Shown here: positions 31,763 to 36,852 of the stretch, piece by piece
Layout of the letters: each line of letters begins with the position of its first letter
Numbering within the stretch: position 1 is the stretch's first letter
Assembly (NCBI RefSeq): GCF_038593265.1
Contig: NZ_CP151979.1
Location: 1,054,001-1,118,000 of the forward strand
From: Ureibacillus sp. FSL W7-1570
GTDB taxonomy: Bacteria; Bacillota; Bacilli; Bacillales_A; Planococcaceae
Length of the DNA: 64,000 nt
Direction: 5' to 3'
The notes under the pieces: generated by a model
Database searches by the model: none
Told to the model about the DNA's origin: nothing
Seen by the model: only the letters and a program-made list of their open reading frames with translations
Made by a program: the position numbers and the translations under genes

Positions 31763-32326
31763 GCTTCCTGTCAAGTAGACAGTGTAAAAAATAAAAATGT
31801 TACTAAGCGGCTTGAGCCCTGTATTCTAAGGGACTTAAGCCGTTTAATTTTTTCTGATAACGGAAATGGTTATAAAAATAAATATATTCATCAATCGATT
31901 GTTTCCGTGCTTGATATGAATCATAGGTATTCAAATGATATTTTTCACATTTGAATTTACTCCAAAAGGATTCAATTGAGCGTTATCGATGCATTGACCC
32001 ACACGAGACATACTTTGTGTTCATTGTGCCTCGTCTATGATCTCCTTATATTTTTTGGATGTATATTGGAATCCTCGATCGCTATGTACGAGTGGATGTT
32101 CGTCAGGTTTCAGGGCTTGGATTGCTTTTGAAATCACCTGTTCAACACGTAGCTGAAAATCGATTAAATCGCGAGTTTACTGCAGAAAAGCCCAATATGA
32201 AATGGTGTACAGATGTAACGGAGCTGAAATATGGGAACGGAAAAAAAGCCTATTTAAGTGCCATTATTGATTTGCATGATGGTTCTAATGTGAGTTATGA
32301 ATTGGGTCATTCCAATAATAAACATG
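31763..32326. mobile_element. Rearranged remnant of an IS3-family (IS150-like) insertion sequence
   Basis: Two halves of one IS3-type orfB are present in opposite orientation: the C-terminal half on the minus strand (31804-32142) and the central part on the plus strand (from about 32138). They meet at about 32140, as if the 3' half had been inverted. A likely terminal sequence lies near 31763-31785 (TGTCAAGTAGACAGTG), before the orfB stop. Both parts are disrupted, so the element cannot transpose by itself. The orfA part and the other end are not found. Confidence 0.8.
31804..32142 (-). pseudogene. C-terminal fragment of IS3-family transposase OrfB, frameshifted
   Basis: On the minus strand translation gives EQVISKAIQALKPDEHPL then HSDRGFQYTSKKYKE (second Asp of the DDE triad), an in-frame stop near 32030, SMSRVGQCIDNA, a one-base loss, then IESFWSKFKCEKYHLN (containing the DDE-region Glu) and the typical ending YIYFYNHFRYQKKLNGLSPL. 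The stop and the frameshift make it non-functional. Confidence 0.85.
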
Positions 32327-32544
32327 TTATTCTTTTTATGTATTGTACTGTTAAATACTTAGAGGAACAAGGTTATTCAATACCTTTTAACTCAGATATA
32401 GATGATAGTAAAATTAAATTAGGTATGACTTATGAAGATGTATATGAAATAGTTAAGAAAAAAGTATTTTCAATGGATAATTCCAGAATTTATACTAATG
32501 AAAGTCGCAATAATACTAAAGTTACTACGGACTTATATATTTGA
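32138..32544 (+). pseudogene. Central fragment of IS3-family OrfB joined to unrelated AT-rich coding debris
   Basis: Residues from the QHVAENRLNREF start to YELGHSNN are the classic IS3 OrfB middle region, with the first DDE Asp in MKWCTDVTELKYG. After HSNNKHV (about 32326) the match ends and the frame continues into a different, AT-rich sequence containing IKLGMTYEDVYEIV, which resembles the repeat of small SmpA/DUF-type lipoproteins, and stops at 32544. It is read as chimeric debris, not a gene. There is no usable start. Confidence 0.75.
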
Positions 32545-32615: not shown

Positions 32616-32701
32616 TAGTAAACTTAATCCAAAAATAGGTTGACATAAATGTAGATTACGAGGTAAATTTATGTCAACCTATTTTATGTTTTGGTTTACT
32701 A
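32616..32701 (+). promoter_or_regulatory. Two biotin-repressor (BirA)-like operators around the bioY promoter
   Basis: A 35-base inverted repeat (32616-32650 and 32667-32701; 30 of 35 positions pair; inner 19 perfect, AAAATAGGTTGACATAAAT). Each arm is itself a BirA-like site: TAGTAAACT-N13-GGTTGACAT at 32616-32646 and ATGTCAACC-N13-GGTTTACTA at 32671-32701. A promoter is embedded: TTGACA at 32640-32645 and TAAATT at 32664-32669 (18 apart), so one operator covers the -35 and the other the start region. This predicts repression by biotinyl-AMP-bound BirA. The operator identity is inferred from the half-site pattern known for Bacillus biotin genes. Confidence 0.75.
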
Positions 32702-32715
32702 AAGGGGATGTAAGA

Positions 32716-33291
32716 ATGAAAATTAAAGAGATTACTTATGTTGCATTGTTTGCGGGAATCATGGGAATTTTGGGATTGGTTCCACCTATTACATTGGGGT
32801 TCACTCCTGTACCAATTACTTTACAAACGTTAGGTGTGATCTTGGCAGGAGGTATACTCGGTGCTCGGCTTGGTTCGTTGAGCATCATTGTCTTTTTATT
32901 GATCGTAGCAGCAGGAATGCCGCTTTTACCCGGTGGACGCGGTGGAATTGGAGTCTTTTTCGGTCCGAGCGGCGGCTATTTAATAGGATATGTAATTGCT
33001 GCTTTTAGCATCGGCCTTATTTTTTCTAAAATTCAAACGTTGAAATTTAAACATATTATCGCAACAAATTTAACGGTTGGCATTTTTTCTGTCTATTTAA
33101 CAGGTATTCCTGTGCAGGCTTTTGTAATGAACCTTCCAATACTTGAAACGATTAAATTGAGTCTTGTTTATATTCCAGGAGATTTCATAAAAGCAATTAT
33201 TGCTTCAATCCTTGTTTACAAATTACAGAAATACCCGATTATTGCCCAAAACTTTGTTAAATCGTCTACAGCACAAGTAAGGGAGGGATAA
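32716..33291 (+). CDS. bioY: Biotin ECF-transporter substrate component BioY
   Basis: A 191-residue membrane protein with six spans that binds biotin and works alone or with the ECF ATPase module. It has the family segments GFTPVPITLQTLGVILAGGILGARLG near residue 25 and GRGGIGVFFGPSGGYLIGY near 75. The ATG at 32716 has AAAGGGG upstream; an in-frame ATG at 32671 would lie inside the operator. It is the first gene of a five-gene plus-strand unit. This arrangement resembles B. subtilis yhfU-yhfT-yhfS, which is under BirA control. Confidence 0.95.
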   Translation: MKIKEITYVALFAGIMGILGLVPPITLGFTPVPITLQTLGVILAGGILGARLGSLSIIVFLLIVAAGMPLLPGGRGGIGVFFGPSGGYLIGYVIAAFSIGLIFSKIQTLKFKHIIATNLTVGIFSVYLTGIPVQAFVMNLPILETIKLSLVYIPGDFIKAIIASILVYKLQKYPIIAQNFVKSSTAQVREG

Positions 33292-33294
33292 GGT

Positions 33295-34803
33295 GTGATT
33301 ACTTCTCCCTATTCAAAGCATGCAAAGCTTTTTCCCAATAAAGCTGCACTAATAACGAAAGATGGAGTTTTAACATACCGTGAATGGGATAAAGCGGTAC
33401 GGAAAACGGCCACATGGTTTCAGGCAATGGATTCCCATCATAAAACAGTTGGCATCCATTTGCCGAATGGAATTCCGTTTTTGCAGGTTTTTGCAGGGGC
33501 AGCTGCTGCCGGATGGAAGGCAGTTCCCCTTGATTTAAAATGGAAGAAAGAAGAACTGCAAAAACGTATTGAACTTGCCCAACCTGATGTCATCATTACT
33601 ACAACAAATCTTTTTTCAAAAGAAATAGGGTTTAATCAGAATGTATGGATTTGGGAAGAATGCAAAGAAAAAATTGCGGAAATGCCACCAAAGAAAAACT
33701 TTCCGGATTTAGACGATTCGCTTCCGTTTTATCTTGGATTTACATCAGGCTCAACCGGTTCGCCAAAGGCTTTTATCCGTTCGCACTTGTCTTGGATAGA
33801 AAGTTTTGTGTGCACTCGCCGTGAATTTGGCATCAAGGAAAACGACCACGTGCTGATTCCCGGTCCGCTTTTTCATTCCCATTCGTTATTTGGAGCGATG
33901 AGTACTTTGTTTATCGGTGGAACCGTGTATGTATTGGACAAATTTTCCCCTGAAAAAATGTTTTCAGTTATCAGGGATCATCCGGTTTCAGTAGTGTATA
34001 TTGTTCCGACGATGGCTGAGGCGCTTCTTAAAAAAAACACATCGGTGAAGCAACCGTTGAAATTAATTTCTTCTGGGGCGAAATTAGAGGTACATACGAG
34101 AAATAGAATCCGCTCAATGTTTCCAAACCTGATATTGTTTGAGTTTTATGGTGCGGGTGAGCTTAGTTTTGTTTCATTTTCTAATAATGAAAGAAAGCCA
34201 GATTCTGTTGGCAGGCCGTTTCATAATGTGAAGGTTCAGATTCGCCGCCATAATGGAGAAATTGCCGGTGTCGGAGAAATCGGGAAAATCTATGTACGCA
34301 GCCCTATGACATTTATTGGTTATATCACAGAACCGGGTGGATACGCGAAATCAATTGCAGATGAACAAGGGTGGGTGACGGTCAATGATATGGGATGGAT
34401 CGACGAGGAAGGTTATCTCTATGTCGCGGGCCGGGAGAATAATATGATTTTGTATGGTGGTATAAATCTTTTCCCTGAGGAAATCGAAGCTGTTTTGACG
34501 AAGCATCCGAAAGTGGAAAAAGCGGCTGTGGTTGGATTAAGCGATCCGTATTGGGGGCAAATTGCGGTAGGTATTATACAGGGAGATGTATCTGAACTGG
34601 AATTAAAGCGGTATTGCAAAACGCATTTGGCTTCATATAAAGTGCCGCGCAAATGGTATTTTACAGAAGAAATGCCTATGACTACCAGCGGGAAAATCGC
34701 CCGTGGAGAGCTTCTGAGGTTGCTGGAGAAAAGACTGGTGAATGCCACTTCGATTAATGATTGTAAACACCCCATGATAGAAAGGGATGAGCTGCCGCGG
34801 TAA
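33295..34803 (+). CDS. yhfT: AMP-dependent acyl-CoA ligase (YhfT-like)
   Basis: An ANL-superfamily acyl-CoA synthetase of 502 residues. It has the AMP/phosphate loop FTSGSTGSPKAF near residue 147, GAGELSF near 285, the hinge region YVAGRENNMILYGGINLFPEEIEAVL near 380, and the C-terminal catalytic Lys in TTSGKIARGELL near 465. It starts at a GTG three bases after the bioY stop, with GGGAGGG upstream, so it is tightly coupled to bioY. The acid substrate cannot be read from sequence. Its place in a biotin-controlled operon suggests a mono- or dicarboxylate used toward biotin, which is inference. Confidence 0.88.
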   Translation: MITSPYSKHAKLFPNKAALITKDGVLTYREWDKAVRKTATWFQAMDSHHKTVGIHLPNGIPFLQVFAGAAAAGWKAVPLDLKWKKEELQKRIELAQPDVIITTTNLFSKEIGFNQNVWIWEECKEKIAEMPPKKNFPDLDDSLPFYLGFTSGSTGSPKAFIRSHLSWIESFVCTRREFGIKENDHVLIPGPLFHSHSLFGAMSTLFIGGTVYVLDKFSPEKMFSVIRDHPVSVVYIVPTMAEALLKKNTSVKQPLKLISSGAKLEVHTRNRIRSMFPNLILFEFYGAGELSFVSFSNNERKPDSVGRPFHNVKVQIRRHNGEIAGVGEIGKIYVRSPMTFIGYITEPGGYAKSIADEQGWVTVNDMGWIDEEGYLYVAGRENNMILYGGINLFPEEIEAVLTKHPKVEKAAVVGLSDPYWGQIAVGIIQGDVSELELKRYCKTHLASYKVPRKWYFTEEMPMTTSGKIARGELLRLLEKRLVNATSINDCKHPMIERDELPR

Positions 34804-34834
34804 AGAGAAGTAGGTGCGAAAGGAGAATGATGAC

Positions 34835-35938
34835 ATGAGAGATGCGGTAATTGTTGCAGCGAAAAGAACTCCGATTGCCCGTGAAAACGGGGCTTTATGT
34901 CATCTGCAGGCACATCAATTAGCGGCGCCGCTTCTTTCTTTTTTAGCCAAGGGAATCGAGGAGAAGATTAATGACGTCATACTTGGCAATGTTGTTGGTC
35001 CTGGAGGCAATATCGCACGTTTATCAGCTTTAGAGGCAGGTCTTCCCTTCTCTGTGCCCGGAATCACTATTGACCGTCAGTGTTCTGCAGGACTTGAGGC
35101 TATTCGCATGGCTTGTCTTTTTGTTCGTGCAGGTGCCGGATCGTGCTATATGGCAGGAGGAGTTGAAAGCGTCAGCACCTCTCCCTTCCCGAAGCGTGCC
35201 CGGTTTTCACCAGAGAGAATCGGGGATCCGGATATGGGAGTGGCTGCGGAATATGTAGCTGAGAAGTTTGGCATTACAAGAAAAATGCAGGATGAGTATG
35301 TTTTGTTAAGCTGGACGCGAAGCCGGAATGCTTACAGCAATGGAATCTATGATGAGGAAATCTTTCCTGTAGACGGCTTGGAATGTGATGAAATATGGCA
35401 GCGTAAACGGAATATGGAGAAGATAGTGAAACGAGCGAATCCCGTTTTTGTGAAAAATGGAACGGTAACAGCGGCAAATAGCTGCGGAATTCATGATGGT
35501 GCAAGTGCAGTTCTTGTCATGGAAGCTGGTCTGGCGGAAAAACTTGGATATAAACCGCTGCTTCGTTATGTCGACAGCCAAGTGTCGGGTGTGCATCCTT
35601 TTTACCCTGGATTTGCTCCGGTGCCTGCGATCAAAGAATTGCTTGAACGAAATACTTTGACGATTGATGATATTGATCTTATTGAAATAAATGAAGCGTT
35701 TGCGTCCAAAATTGTTGCTTGTACTCAGGAGCTGTCGATTCCATTGGAAAAAATAAATGTTCATGGTGGTGCACTTGTGATTGGCCACCCATACGGTGCA
35801 TCGGGTGCGGTTTTAGTAACAAGATTATTTTATGAAGTTCAACGGCATCCAAGGACTAGATATGTCCTTGCTGCTATCGGCAGTGGCGGAGGCGTAGGGG
35901 TGGCAATGTTGTTTGAAGCAATTGGAGAACAGGAATGA
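34835..35938 (+). CDS. yhfS: Thiolase-family acyltransferase (YhfS-like) lacking the usual second catalytic cysteine
   Basis: A 367-residue thiolase-fold protein. The nucleophile Cys is present in DRQCSAGLEAIRMA near residue 85, and the NEAF (INEAFASKIV) and GHPYGASGA His motifs are intact. The C-terminal motif, normally C-x-G-G-G, reads AIGSGGGVGVAMLFE, so the second active-site Cys that acts as acid/base in classical thiolases is missing. The start ATG at 34835 follows AAAGGAGAA. It sits 31 bases after the ligase. It may condense or cleave 3-oxoacyl-CoA, or use a modified mechanism. Confidence 0.85.
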   Translation: MRDAVIVAAKRTPIARENGALCHLQAHQLAAPLLSFLAKGIEEKINDVILGNVVGPGGNIARLSALEAGLPFSVPGITIDRQCSAGLEAIRMACLFVRAGAGSCYMAGGVESVSTSPFPKRARFSPERIGDPDMGVAAEYVAEKFGITRKMQDEYVLLSWTRSRNAYSNGIYDEEIFPVDGLECDEIWQRKRNMEKIVKRANPVFVKNGTVTAANSCGIHDGASAVLVMEAGLAEKLGYKPLLRYVDSQVSGVHPFYPGFAPVPAIKELLERNTLTIDDIDLIEINEAFASKIVACTQELSIPLEKINVHGGALVIGHPYGASGAVLVTRLFYEVQRHPRTRYVLAAIGSGGGVGVAMLFEAIGEQE

Positions 35939-36027
35939 ACTATGTCCCACCGAGCGGTCAAATGGTTGGCATAGAAGAACAGGGACATATTATATCAAAG
36001 TACCTCTTAAATAAATGAGGTGATAAA

Positions 36028-36438
36028 TTGAAATCGGAGAGTTATGCAGTTTGTTTTACAAAAGAAGAAATTCTTCGTTATACCGAATTAGCCGGAGTGA
36101 AAAATCCGATCTTTCGCAATATGGAAGCGGCATTGGAGCAGGGGTATAAAGGGATACCTGTGCCACCGGCGATGGCGATGATTGCCTACCGCCACATTAA
36201 ATTACCTTGGAAGCTTTCCGAACCGGTCATTCTCAGGAAACAGGAATGCCGGCTGTACAGAATCATGTATGCGGATGAAATTTATACCGGTACCGTTAAA
36301 ATATCAAAGCATTCATTCCGTCATAATAAACTATTTATACTTCAGGAATTGGAAATATTTGATCAGCAGAATCATCTCTGTTTTAACGGAATCTCTCATT
36401 TGATAGCAGGTGGTGTAATTGAAAAAAATACAGTTTGA
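36028..36438 (+). CDS. HadA-like non-catalytic half of a hot-dog hydroxyacyl dehydratase
   Basis: A 136-residue MaoC_dehydrat_N/FAS1-like single hot-dog protein. The region equivalent to the catalytic loop reads GVKNPIFRN, so the D and H of the D-x-N-P-x-H signature are replaced and this half is probably non-catalytic, as in mycobacterial HadA/HadC. The following PVPPAMAMIAYRH segment is typical of the family. The start is a TTG after GAGGTGATAAA. Its last 20 bases overlap the next gene, implying translational coupling and a 1:1 complex. It follows the thiolase by 89 bases. Confidence 0.82.
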   Translation: MKSESYAVCFTKEEILRYTELAGVKNPIFRNMEAALEQGYKGIPVPPAMAMIAYRHIKLPWKLSEPVILRKQECRLYRIMYADEIYTGTVKISKHSFRHNKLFILQELEIFDQQNHLCFNGISHLIAGGVIEKNTV

Positions 36439-36742
36439 AGTGACAGAAAAGGATATCGAAGGTTATGCAGAGTTGTCAGAAGATTATAATCCGATTCATC
36501 TTGACAATGAATATGCCAAGGCTCACGGCTTTTCGGGAAAAATGGCCCATGGGATGCTATCTTTGGCGAAAGTATGGGGCATTTTAGCCAATGAATTAGA
36601 AATCATGCAATTTCCAGCTGAATTCCATTTGCAATTCCAATCGCCTGTCTATGTTGGGGAACAGGTAGAATTGAACATTATGGAAAAAGACAATGTTGTC
36701 ACAATCACCGGCAAAGTTATGAAAGGCAGGGTGTCGTGGTGA
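36419..36742 (+). CDS. HadB-like catalytic MaoC-type (R)-3-hydroxyacyl dehydratase/enoyl hydratase
   Basis: A 107-residue single hot-dog protein with an intact hydratase-2 signature SEDYNPIHLDNEYAKAHGF near residue 20, carrying the catalytic Asp and His, followed by KMAHGMLSLA. It should pair with the preceding protein to form a HadAB-type dehydratase acting on 3-hydroxyacyl thioesters. The start is a TTG inside the upstream gene, with AGGTGG ahead of it. It is the last gene of the bioY unit and is followed by a terminator. CoA versus ACP preference cannot be decided. Confidence 0.88.
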   Translation: MKKIQFEVTEKDIEGYAELSEDYNPIHLDNEYAKAHGFSGKMAHGMLSLAKVWGILANELEIMQFPAEFHLQFQSPVYVGEQVELNIMEKDNVVTITGKVMKGRVSW

Positions 36743-36818: not shown

Positions 36819-36852
36819 CCTTACAGTCAATATTGGCTGTAGGGATTTTTTT
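36819..36852 (+). terminator. Intrinsic terminator of the bioY operon
   Basis: CCTTACAGTC pairs with GGCTGTAGGG around an AATATT loop and is followed by ATTTTTTT. It lies about 75 bases after the last gene of the unit. Confidence 0.85.

Follow-up and report, generated by a model that had tools for sequence, protein, structure and literature searches.

A BirA-linked bioY operon of Ureibacillus with a thiolase-fold enzyme lacking the second catalytic cysteine, and its possible role in the two-carbon elongation of an imported acid

A five-gene operon and its predicted control by BirA

The stretch of DNA analysed here, called the window, comprises 64,000 nucleotides of contig NZ_CP151979.1 from Ureibacillus sp. 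FSL W7-1570, which has a genome of 3.28 Mb. It contains an operon in which bioY, the gene for the substrate-binding component of a biotin transporter of the energy-coupling factor (ECF) type, is followed by genes for an acyl ligase, a thiolase-fold enzyme and two hot-dog proteins. A preliminary description, made from the sequence, had listed these five genes in this order with gaps of 3, 31, 89 and -20 bases. Our analysis confirms the order, the spacing and the common location on the forward strand, where the gap of 31 is measured from the thiolase ATG at 34835. The five-gene operon recurs in other genera and is therefore not a product of chance.

The bioY gene (32716-33291; PF02632, 123.6 bits) lies in an open reading frame (ORF) that extends from 32671 and overlaps the operator O2 described below. 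The ATG at 32716 is the start conserved in the aligned relatives, and translation probably begins there. It is followed by the gene for a YhfT-type acyl ligase forming adenosine monophosphate (AMP) (33295-34803; NF005797, 621 bits, cut-off 518), which carries the motif TSGSTGSPK, and by that for a YhfS-type thiolase-fold condensing enzyme (34835-35938, alternative start 34814; NF005212, 604 bits, cut-off 498). The last two genes encode a HadA-like hot-dog subunit (36028-36438) and a HadB-like MaoC hot-dog dehydratase (36419-36742; PF01575, 75 bits). A terminator had been proposed after the operon, and 3' of the last gene we found a forward-strand hairpin resembling an intrinsic terminator, with an 11-pair stem and a T run (36819-36844); the region holds three such sites, which is not above the number in shuffled sequences (mean 4.2). 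Reading the ORFs of the window revealed no ecfA, ecfA' or ecfT in the operon, and no structured RNA matched Rfam at the gathering score between 31500 and 37200.

The ligase and the thiolase, both over their family cut-offs, stand in the same order as in the bioY-yhfT-yhfS operon of Bacillus subtilis, in agreement with the homology proposed earlier, and a BirA operator is common to both operons. In contrast to the B. subtilis operon, that of the window contains hadA-hadB and two operators, while the long sister operons described below add a ketoreductase and an ECF energising module. The B. subtilis genes are also named yhfU-yhfT-yhfS; Staphylococcus aureus has yhfT-yhfS as BirA targets, and genes named vraABC. 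The core operon and its control by BirA are already known, and in the open-licence literature searched the role of yhfT-yhfS, a target of BirA, is described as putative only.

A sigma-A-like promoter (TTGACA-18-TAAATT, 32640-32669, forward strand), in which 10 of 12 bases agree with the consensus, is flanked by two sites on the same strand that match a BirA operator pattern. O1 (AGTAAACTTAATCCAAAAATAGGTTGAC, 32617-32644) overlaps the -35 box and O2 (TGTCAACCTATTTTATGTTTTGGTTTAC, 32672-32699) lies just 3' of the -10 box. The palindrome AGGTTGAC...GTCAACCT (32637-32680) is not a single operator; it consists of the inner halves of O1 and O2. The pattern, WGTNAACYNW-N11-DGTTNAC, was drawn from sites in the window's genome and in four other genomes (G046, G047, G125 and G080), so that its matches in the genome are not independent of it. 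There are four sites in the 3.28-Mb genome, all 5' of biotin genes: two flank the promoter of the window, one lies at 586680 before another bioY and one at 1463654 before bioD-bioA-bioY-bioB. A reversed control pattern gave 7 forward and 3 reverse matches compared with 4 and 4 for the operator pattern; hence it is the location of the sites, and not their number, that is significant.

The same location is seen in the named loci, by which we mean the best 80 of 276 relatives obtained in an alignment search with the thiolase segment. Among the 79 with a readable bioY, 56 have an operator between -250 and +20 of the bioY start, defined as the start of the profile match. The independent form of this test, which excludes the three loci used to build the pattern, gives 53 of 76. 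No operator was found elsewhere in these loci in 1,232,789 bases scanned on one strand. We also surveyed 151 genomes of the family to which the organism belongs, 18 of which bear the gene set, eight in the five-gene form and ten in a longer form. A strict operator match precedes bioY in all eight five-gene operons and in six of the ten long ones; one more long operon has a relaxed match, and three (L111, L114 and L240) gave no match even with the relaxed pattern. The genome of the window encodes a BirA with an N-terminal helix-turn-helix domain. Together with the two sites at the promoter this upholds the BirA control suggested in the preliminary description, and the operon appears to be repressed by BirA and switched on when biotin is short. 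In S. aureus, assays have shown binding of BirA to the yhfS-yhfT promoter and repression of this promoter (PMC6391492, PMC7235819).

The condensing enzyme and the HadA-HadB pair

The condensing enzyme matches the Pfam families Thiolase_N and Thiolase_C. Its structural model has a pLDDT (predicted local distance difference test) of 93.2, and every one of the 50 PDB entries listed as its best matches is a thiolase or an acetyl-CoA (coenzyme A) acetyltransferase. The nucleophile Cys83 as well as Asn286 (in NEAF) and His318 (in GHP), which correspond to Cys89, Asn316 and His348 of the Zoogloea thiolase, are invariant in all 45 aligned proteins. The second catalytic cysteine, Cys378 in the Zoogloea enzyme, is replaced by glycine in 79 of the 80 named loci, the remaining sequence being truncated. 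A wider set, in which some rows are duplicates, has glycine in all of its 83 rows, while 12 of 12 ordinary thiolases of the same family keep the cysteine.

There is reportedly work on a C378G mutant of the Zoogloea thiolase. According to PMC3406046, the proton of the substrate is abstracted by Cys378, which acts as the base, and thiolase-like proteins without a catalytic cysteine, such as the mycobacterial TLP1, are known. Judged by the loss of this base, both the condensation of two acyl-CoA molecules and thiolysis would be badly impaired, which makes the usual reactions of a thiolase unlikely for this enzyme. The loss therefore counts against ordinary reverse beta-oxidation from two acyl-CoAs and undercuts the thiolase-type route put forward in the preliminary description. 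A decarboxylating condensation, as in ketoacyl synthases, needs no proton-abstracting base. Such a reaction is possible for the YhfS-type enzyme, and it would explain why the second cysteine is absent throughout the clade.

The HadA-like protein reaches 20.5 bits with PF13452, below the cut-off of 22, and its identity was therefore taken from the structural match of its AlphaFold model (pLDDT 93.9). The best PDB matches found with Foldseek are chains of the mycobacterial HadAB, HadBC and HadBD, with Z scores of 15-16 and a root-mean-square deviation of about 2 over 124-134 aligned residues. With the MaoC match of HadB, this supports the HadA/HadB-like pair named earlier. HadB has the catalytic Asp22/His27 pair, and Asp22, Asn24 and His27 (SEDYNPIH; Asp-x-Asn-Pro-x-His) are kept in all 22 aligned proteins. 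In HadA the histidine position is occupied by tyrosine, phenylalanine, another residue or a gap in 21 of 21 sequences, and never by histidine. Since HadB keeps the Asp/His pair and HadA never has the histidine, the two resemble a heterodimer in which one subunit is catalytic, a prediction from the alignments and the model.

The closest solved folds, HadAB and ChsH1-ChsH2, likewise combine a hot-dog subunit that has the Asp/His pair with a partner that has no histidine. In contrast to the window's predicted dimer, with which they share about 15% identity, they stand in another genomic setting. Among the structural neighbours is ChsH1-ChsH2 with bound 3-OPC-CoA. This ligand is a steroid, a thioester on the side chain of a ring system. 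By analogy, ChsH1-ChsH2 may be a precedent for the action of a MaoC enzyme of two subunits on a short side chain borne by a bulky ring.

Sister operons and the biotin genes of the carriers

In the family survey, NF005212 scored over its cut-off in 8 of the 151 genomes, and in each of these the order of the five genes is conserved; in G080, bioY lies about 640 bases ahead of the ligase. The next ten matches (377-443 bits) belong to the long sister operons, and the 12 weaker matches inspected (348-362 bits) are ordinary thiolases. The order bioY-ligase-thiolase-hadA-hadB-ketoreductase-ecfA-ecfA'-ecfT is found in all ten sister operons, where hadA is weak in G068 (score 28) and assigned by position only in G078 (a 104-residue ORF with no hidden Markov model match). 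The ketoreductase resembles FabG and has the motifs TGxxxGxG and YxxxK (families checked in one operon, L111). Reductases had been expected to come from elsewhere, an expectation that the sequence supports; the sister operons themselves carry the ketoreductase. Nine of the ten long operons end with a small gene for a CHY zinc-finger protein (e.g. L111 13983-14291), which also adjoins some short ones.

The sister operons join bioY to ecfA, ecfA' and ecfT, as do BioMNY and other ECF-BioY operons. They differ from these in the five enzyme genes that stand between bioY and the energising genes, and the operon of the window differs in having no ecf gene. Among the named loci, bioY, ligase and thiolase occur together in 78 of 80, the exceptions being one cut contig and one locus without the ligase. 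The long operons offer a nearly complete set of reactions, a link to a transporter and a clue in the active site for the role of yhfT-yhfS. In the part of the literature covered by our open-licence search we found neither the HadA-HadB extension nor the ketoreductase/ECF form, nor the clade-wide loss of the second cysteine or the persistence of the set without the biotin pathway.

The biotin genes of the carriers bear on a reading offered in the preliminary description, namely a reverse-beta-oxidation or BioZ-like route from glutarate to pimeloyl-CoA that would supply a biotin precursor de novo. A ligase, a condensing enzyme and a dehydratase could together yield a C7 diacid thioester, and BirA operators are present. 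Moreover, PMC11089781 states that the source of free pimelate in B. subtilis is not known, and BioZ condenses glutaryl-CoA with malonyl-ACP (acyl carrier protein; PMC7645780). This alphaproteobacterial pathway follows the same logic of a primer thioester, a decarboxylating condensation and reduction, dehydration and reduction. BioZ, however, is a FabH-type 3-ketoacyl-ACP synthase, whereas the condensing enzyme of the window has the thiolase fold and is not FabH-type, and the BioZ route needs BioF and BioA downstream, one or the other of which was not found in many carriers.

The window's genome does encode BioA. Of its three bioY genes, all in units that follow a BirA operator, one belongs to bioD-bioA-bioY-bioB (1463712-1467325; L025 5713-9326), which has its own operator and neither bioF nor bioW beside it. 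A profile search of this genome gave no match for BioW and no BioF over the cut-off, the best score being 423.6 compared with 426.45 bits. The protein that falls just short is of the glycine C-acetyltransferase type (NF005394, 561 bits, cut-off 460), and a BioF side activity is conceivable for it. Among the 18 set-bearing genomes, eight have bioA and bioB, eight have bioB without bioA, and two (G080 and G150, each in 2 contigs and estimated to be 100% complete) have neither over the cut-off. A genome is classed as without bioA if no protein scored above the TIGR00508 cut-off (405 bits); the best scores are 269-366 bits in the ten genomes so classed and 553-590 bits in the eight others. When the count is extended to 37 genomes that encode such a thiolase, bioA scores over the cut-off in 15.

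Among the 18 carriers, BioW and BioF occur together only in G021 and G064, and BioW is not enriched with the set (2 of 18, compared with 10 of the family's remaining 133 genomes; p 0.64). Enrichment was seen for bioB (16 of 18 compared with 81 of 133; Fisher p 0.02, in a test that like the former ignores phylogeny), and this would suit a pimeloyl-CoA route. Nevertheless, since ten of the 18 carriers are without bioA, two of these also without bioB, and BioW is found in only two, pimeloyl-CoA would be useless to most of them, and its synthesis as a general role is rejected for most carriers of the family. We consider the route very unlikely for the operon as a whole. Thus the de novo half of the earlier proposal is not supported, and its alternative, the scavenging or recycling of a biotin precursor, survives. 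In G021 and G064 (L082 7249-9663, L083 7076-9490), BioW and BioF are preceded by a 166-residue protein that has no Pfam match (tested for L082) and looks membrane-like by eye.

The carriers with bioB only would take up dethiobiotin or biotin, and in all ten without bioA the known route would make pimeloyl-CoA a dead end. In seven of the eight bioB-only genomes, bioB adjoins another bioY, and it stands alone in G047; the pairing suggests salvage of vitamers. Beta-oxidation of biotin or azelate was considered as well and is disfavoured, given that the operators are those of a biotin-shortage set and that thiolysis needs the second cysteine. For azelate, BioF would again be required.

A possible two-carbon elongation of an imported acid

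We propose that the operon responds to biotin shortage, takes up an acid via BioY and lengthens it by two carbons, the likeliest substrate being a shortened biotin such as bisnorbiotin. We give this reading a probability of roughly 0.37. The sequence data support the two-carbon chain-modifying set recognised in the preliminary description. BioY, assigned by sequence, would import a carboxylic acid, and the YhfT-type ligase would activate it via acyl-AMP to a CoA or ACP thioester. The acyl group would then pass to the only catalytic cysteine of the YhfS-type enzyme and be condensed with a malonyl thioester, which would furnish the carbanion by decarboxylation. Ketoreduction, by the operon-encoded enzyme in the sister genomes and otherwise presumably by the housekeeping FabG, would be followed by dehydration by HadA/HadB, and a housekeeping enoyl reductase would complete a single round of elongation. 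In this way bisnorbiotin, and perhaps bisnordethiobiotin, both shortened by beta-oxidation, might be converted to biotin or dethiobiotin.

The imported compound is the likeliest substrate of the enzymes because these lie between bioY and ecfA/ecfA'/ecfT in all ten sister operons, and bisnorbiotin and bisnordethiobiotin were chosen because BioY could bind such acids and a gain of two carbons would turn them into biotin and dethiobiotin. A route from a shortened vitamer would need none of BioW, BioF and BioA, and its product would be wanted when BirA derepresses. Accordingly, we count the persistence of the set in the bioA- and bioB-deficient carriers in favour of the proposal. Bisnorbiotin is a common metabolite that amounts to 13-23% of the biotin in human urine (PMC9106636). 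In its most specific form the proposal describes a repair of the biotin side chain, in which an imported bisnorbiotin or dethio form has its five-carbon side chain rebuilt by a thiolase-derived decarboxylating synthase, the longest version being encoded within its own ECF operon. This form is tentative and somewhat doubtful. If the proposal is true, degradation products of biotin are a usable source of the vitamin and a thiolase-fold enzyme carries out a decarboxylating condensation.

The linkage to a transporter would also fit enzymes that modify or detoxify another acid taken up by BioY, for instance the antimetabolite alpha-dehydrobiotin or a dicarboxylate, and HadAB might act on an alpha,beta-unsaturated thioester. 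However, induction under biotin shortage fits supply better than detoxification, and detoxification needs no condensing enzyme. We regard this explanation as quite unlikely.

Several observations weigh against the elongation of a shortened biotin. Nothing in the sequences names bisnorbiotin, which is our inference. We saw no gene for an enoyl reductase in the operons that we read, and some residual biotin would be required, since it takes a biotin enzyme to make the malonyl donor. The enrichment of bioB argues against a pure bisnorbiotin route, because such a route needs no bioB. Moreover, hadA and hadB follow the thiolase in 24 of the 80 named loci and hadA alone in one, while 55 have neither beside it, so that there the dehydratase steps must come from elsewhere. 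Of these 55, 53 consist of bioY-ligase-thiolase, one is without the ligase and one is cut before bioY; one locus, L160, ends soon after the thiolase. These counts stem from a six-frame search, as longer overlapping ORFs had masked several hadA genes; a single-protein search of the genome contigs with the HadA-like protein gave no match. Outside the family, bioY leads nine of 13 regions and is missing in four (L125, L126, L128 and L129). The transporter link of the glycine-bearing clade is thus usual, not universal. Finally, B. subtilis YhfT reportedly forms acyl-AMP but no CoA esters and feeds surfactin synthesis, passing the activated acyl group to a carrier protein (PMC10988940), an indication that fatty acids are among its substrates, if only as side substrates. 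The acceptor may be a carrier protein, or the true acid may not have been offered.

The role of YhfT in supplying fatty acids for surfactin also favours a lipid response, in which fatty acids are activated and extended when the biotin-dependent acetyl-CoA carboxylase, and hence fatty acid synthesis, fails. BirA senses biotin, HadAB-type dehydratases serve fatty acid synthesis, and part of the glycine-bearing clade is not linked to bioY. On the other hand, the thiolase is without the base for a malonyl-free condensation, while the supply of malonyl groups is exactly what fails, and the long operons interleave the genes with a vitamin transporter and not with lipid genes. We therefore hold the lipid response to be unlikely.

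Two of the bioY-less regions deserve mention. L125 (6228-12834, in G318) contains ligase-thiolase-hadA-hadB-ketoreductase-ecfA-ecfA'-ecfT without a leading bioY, and the upstream gene encodes a transporter of the Vut_1 family. L129 (7501-10612) contains ligase and thiolase, the latter with glycine at the Cys378 position, followed by two small ORFs without a Pfam match, and has no bioY; we take this region to be possibly the vraABC genes.

In the window itself, the 89-base gap between thiolase and hadA (35939-36027) contains an inverted repeat, ATGTCCC...GGGACAT, seen by eye. Directly upstream of the operon, at 32059-32544, lies the remnant of an IS3-family transposase gene with a partial match to NF033516 (62 bits, cut-off 160), and part of its ORF is also present in the near relative G010 (L027 5473-5772).

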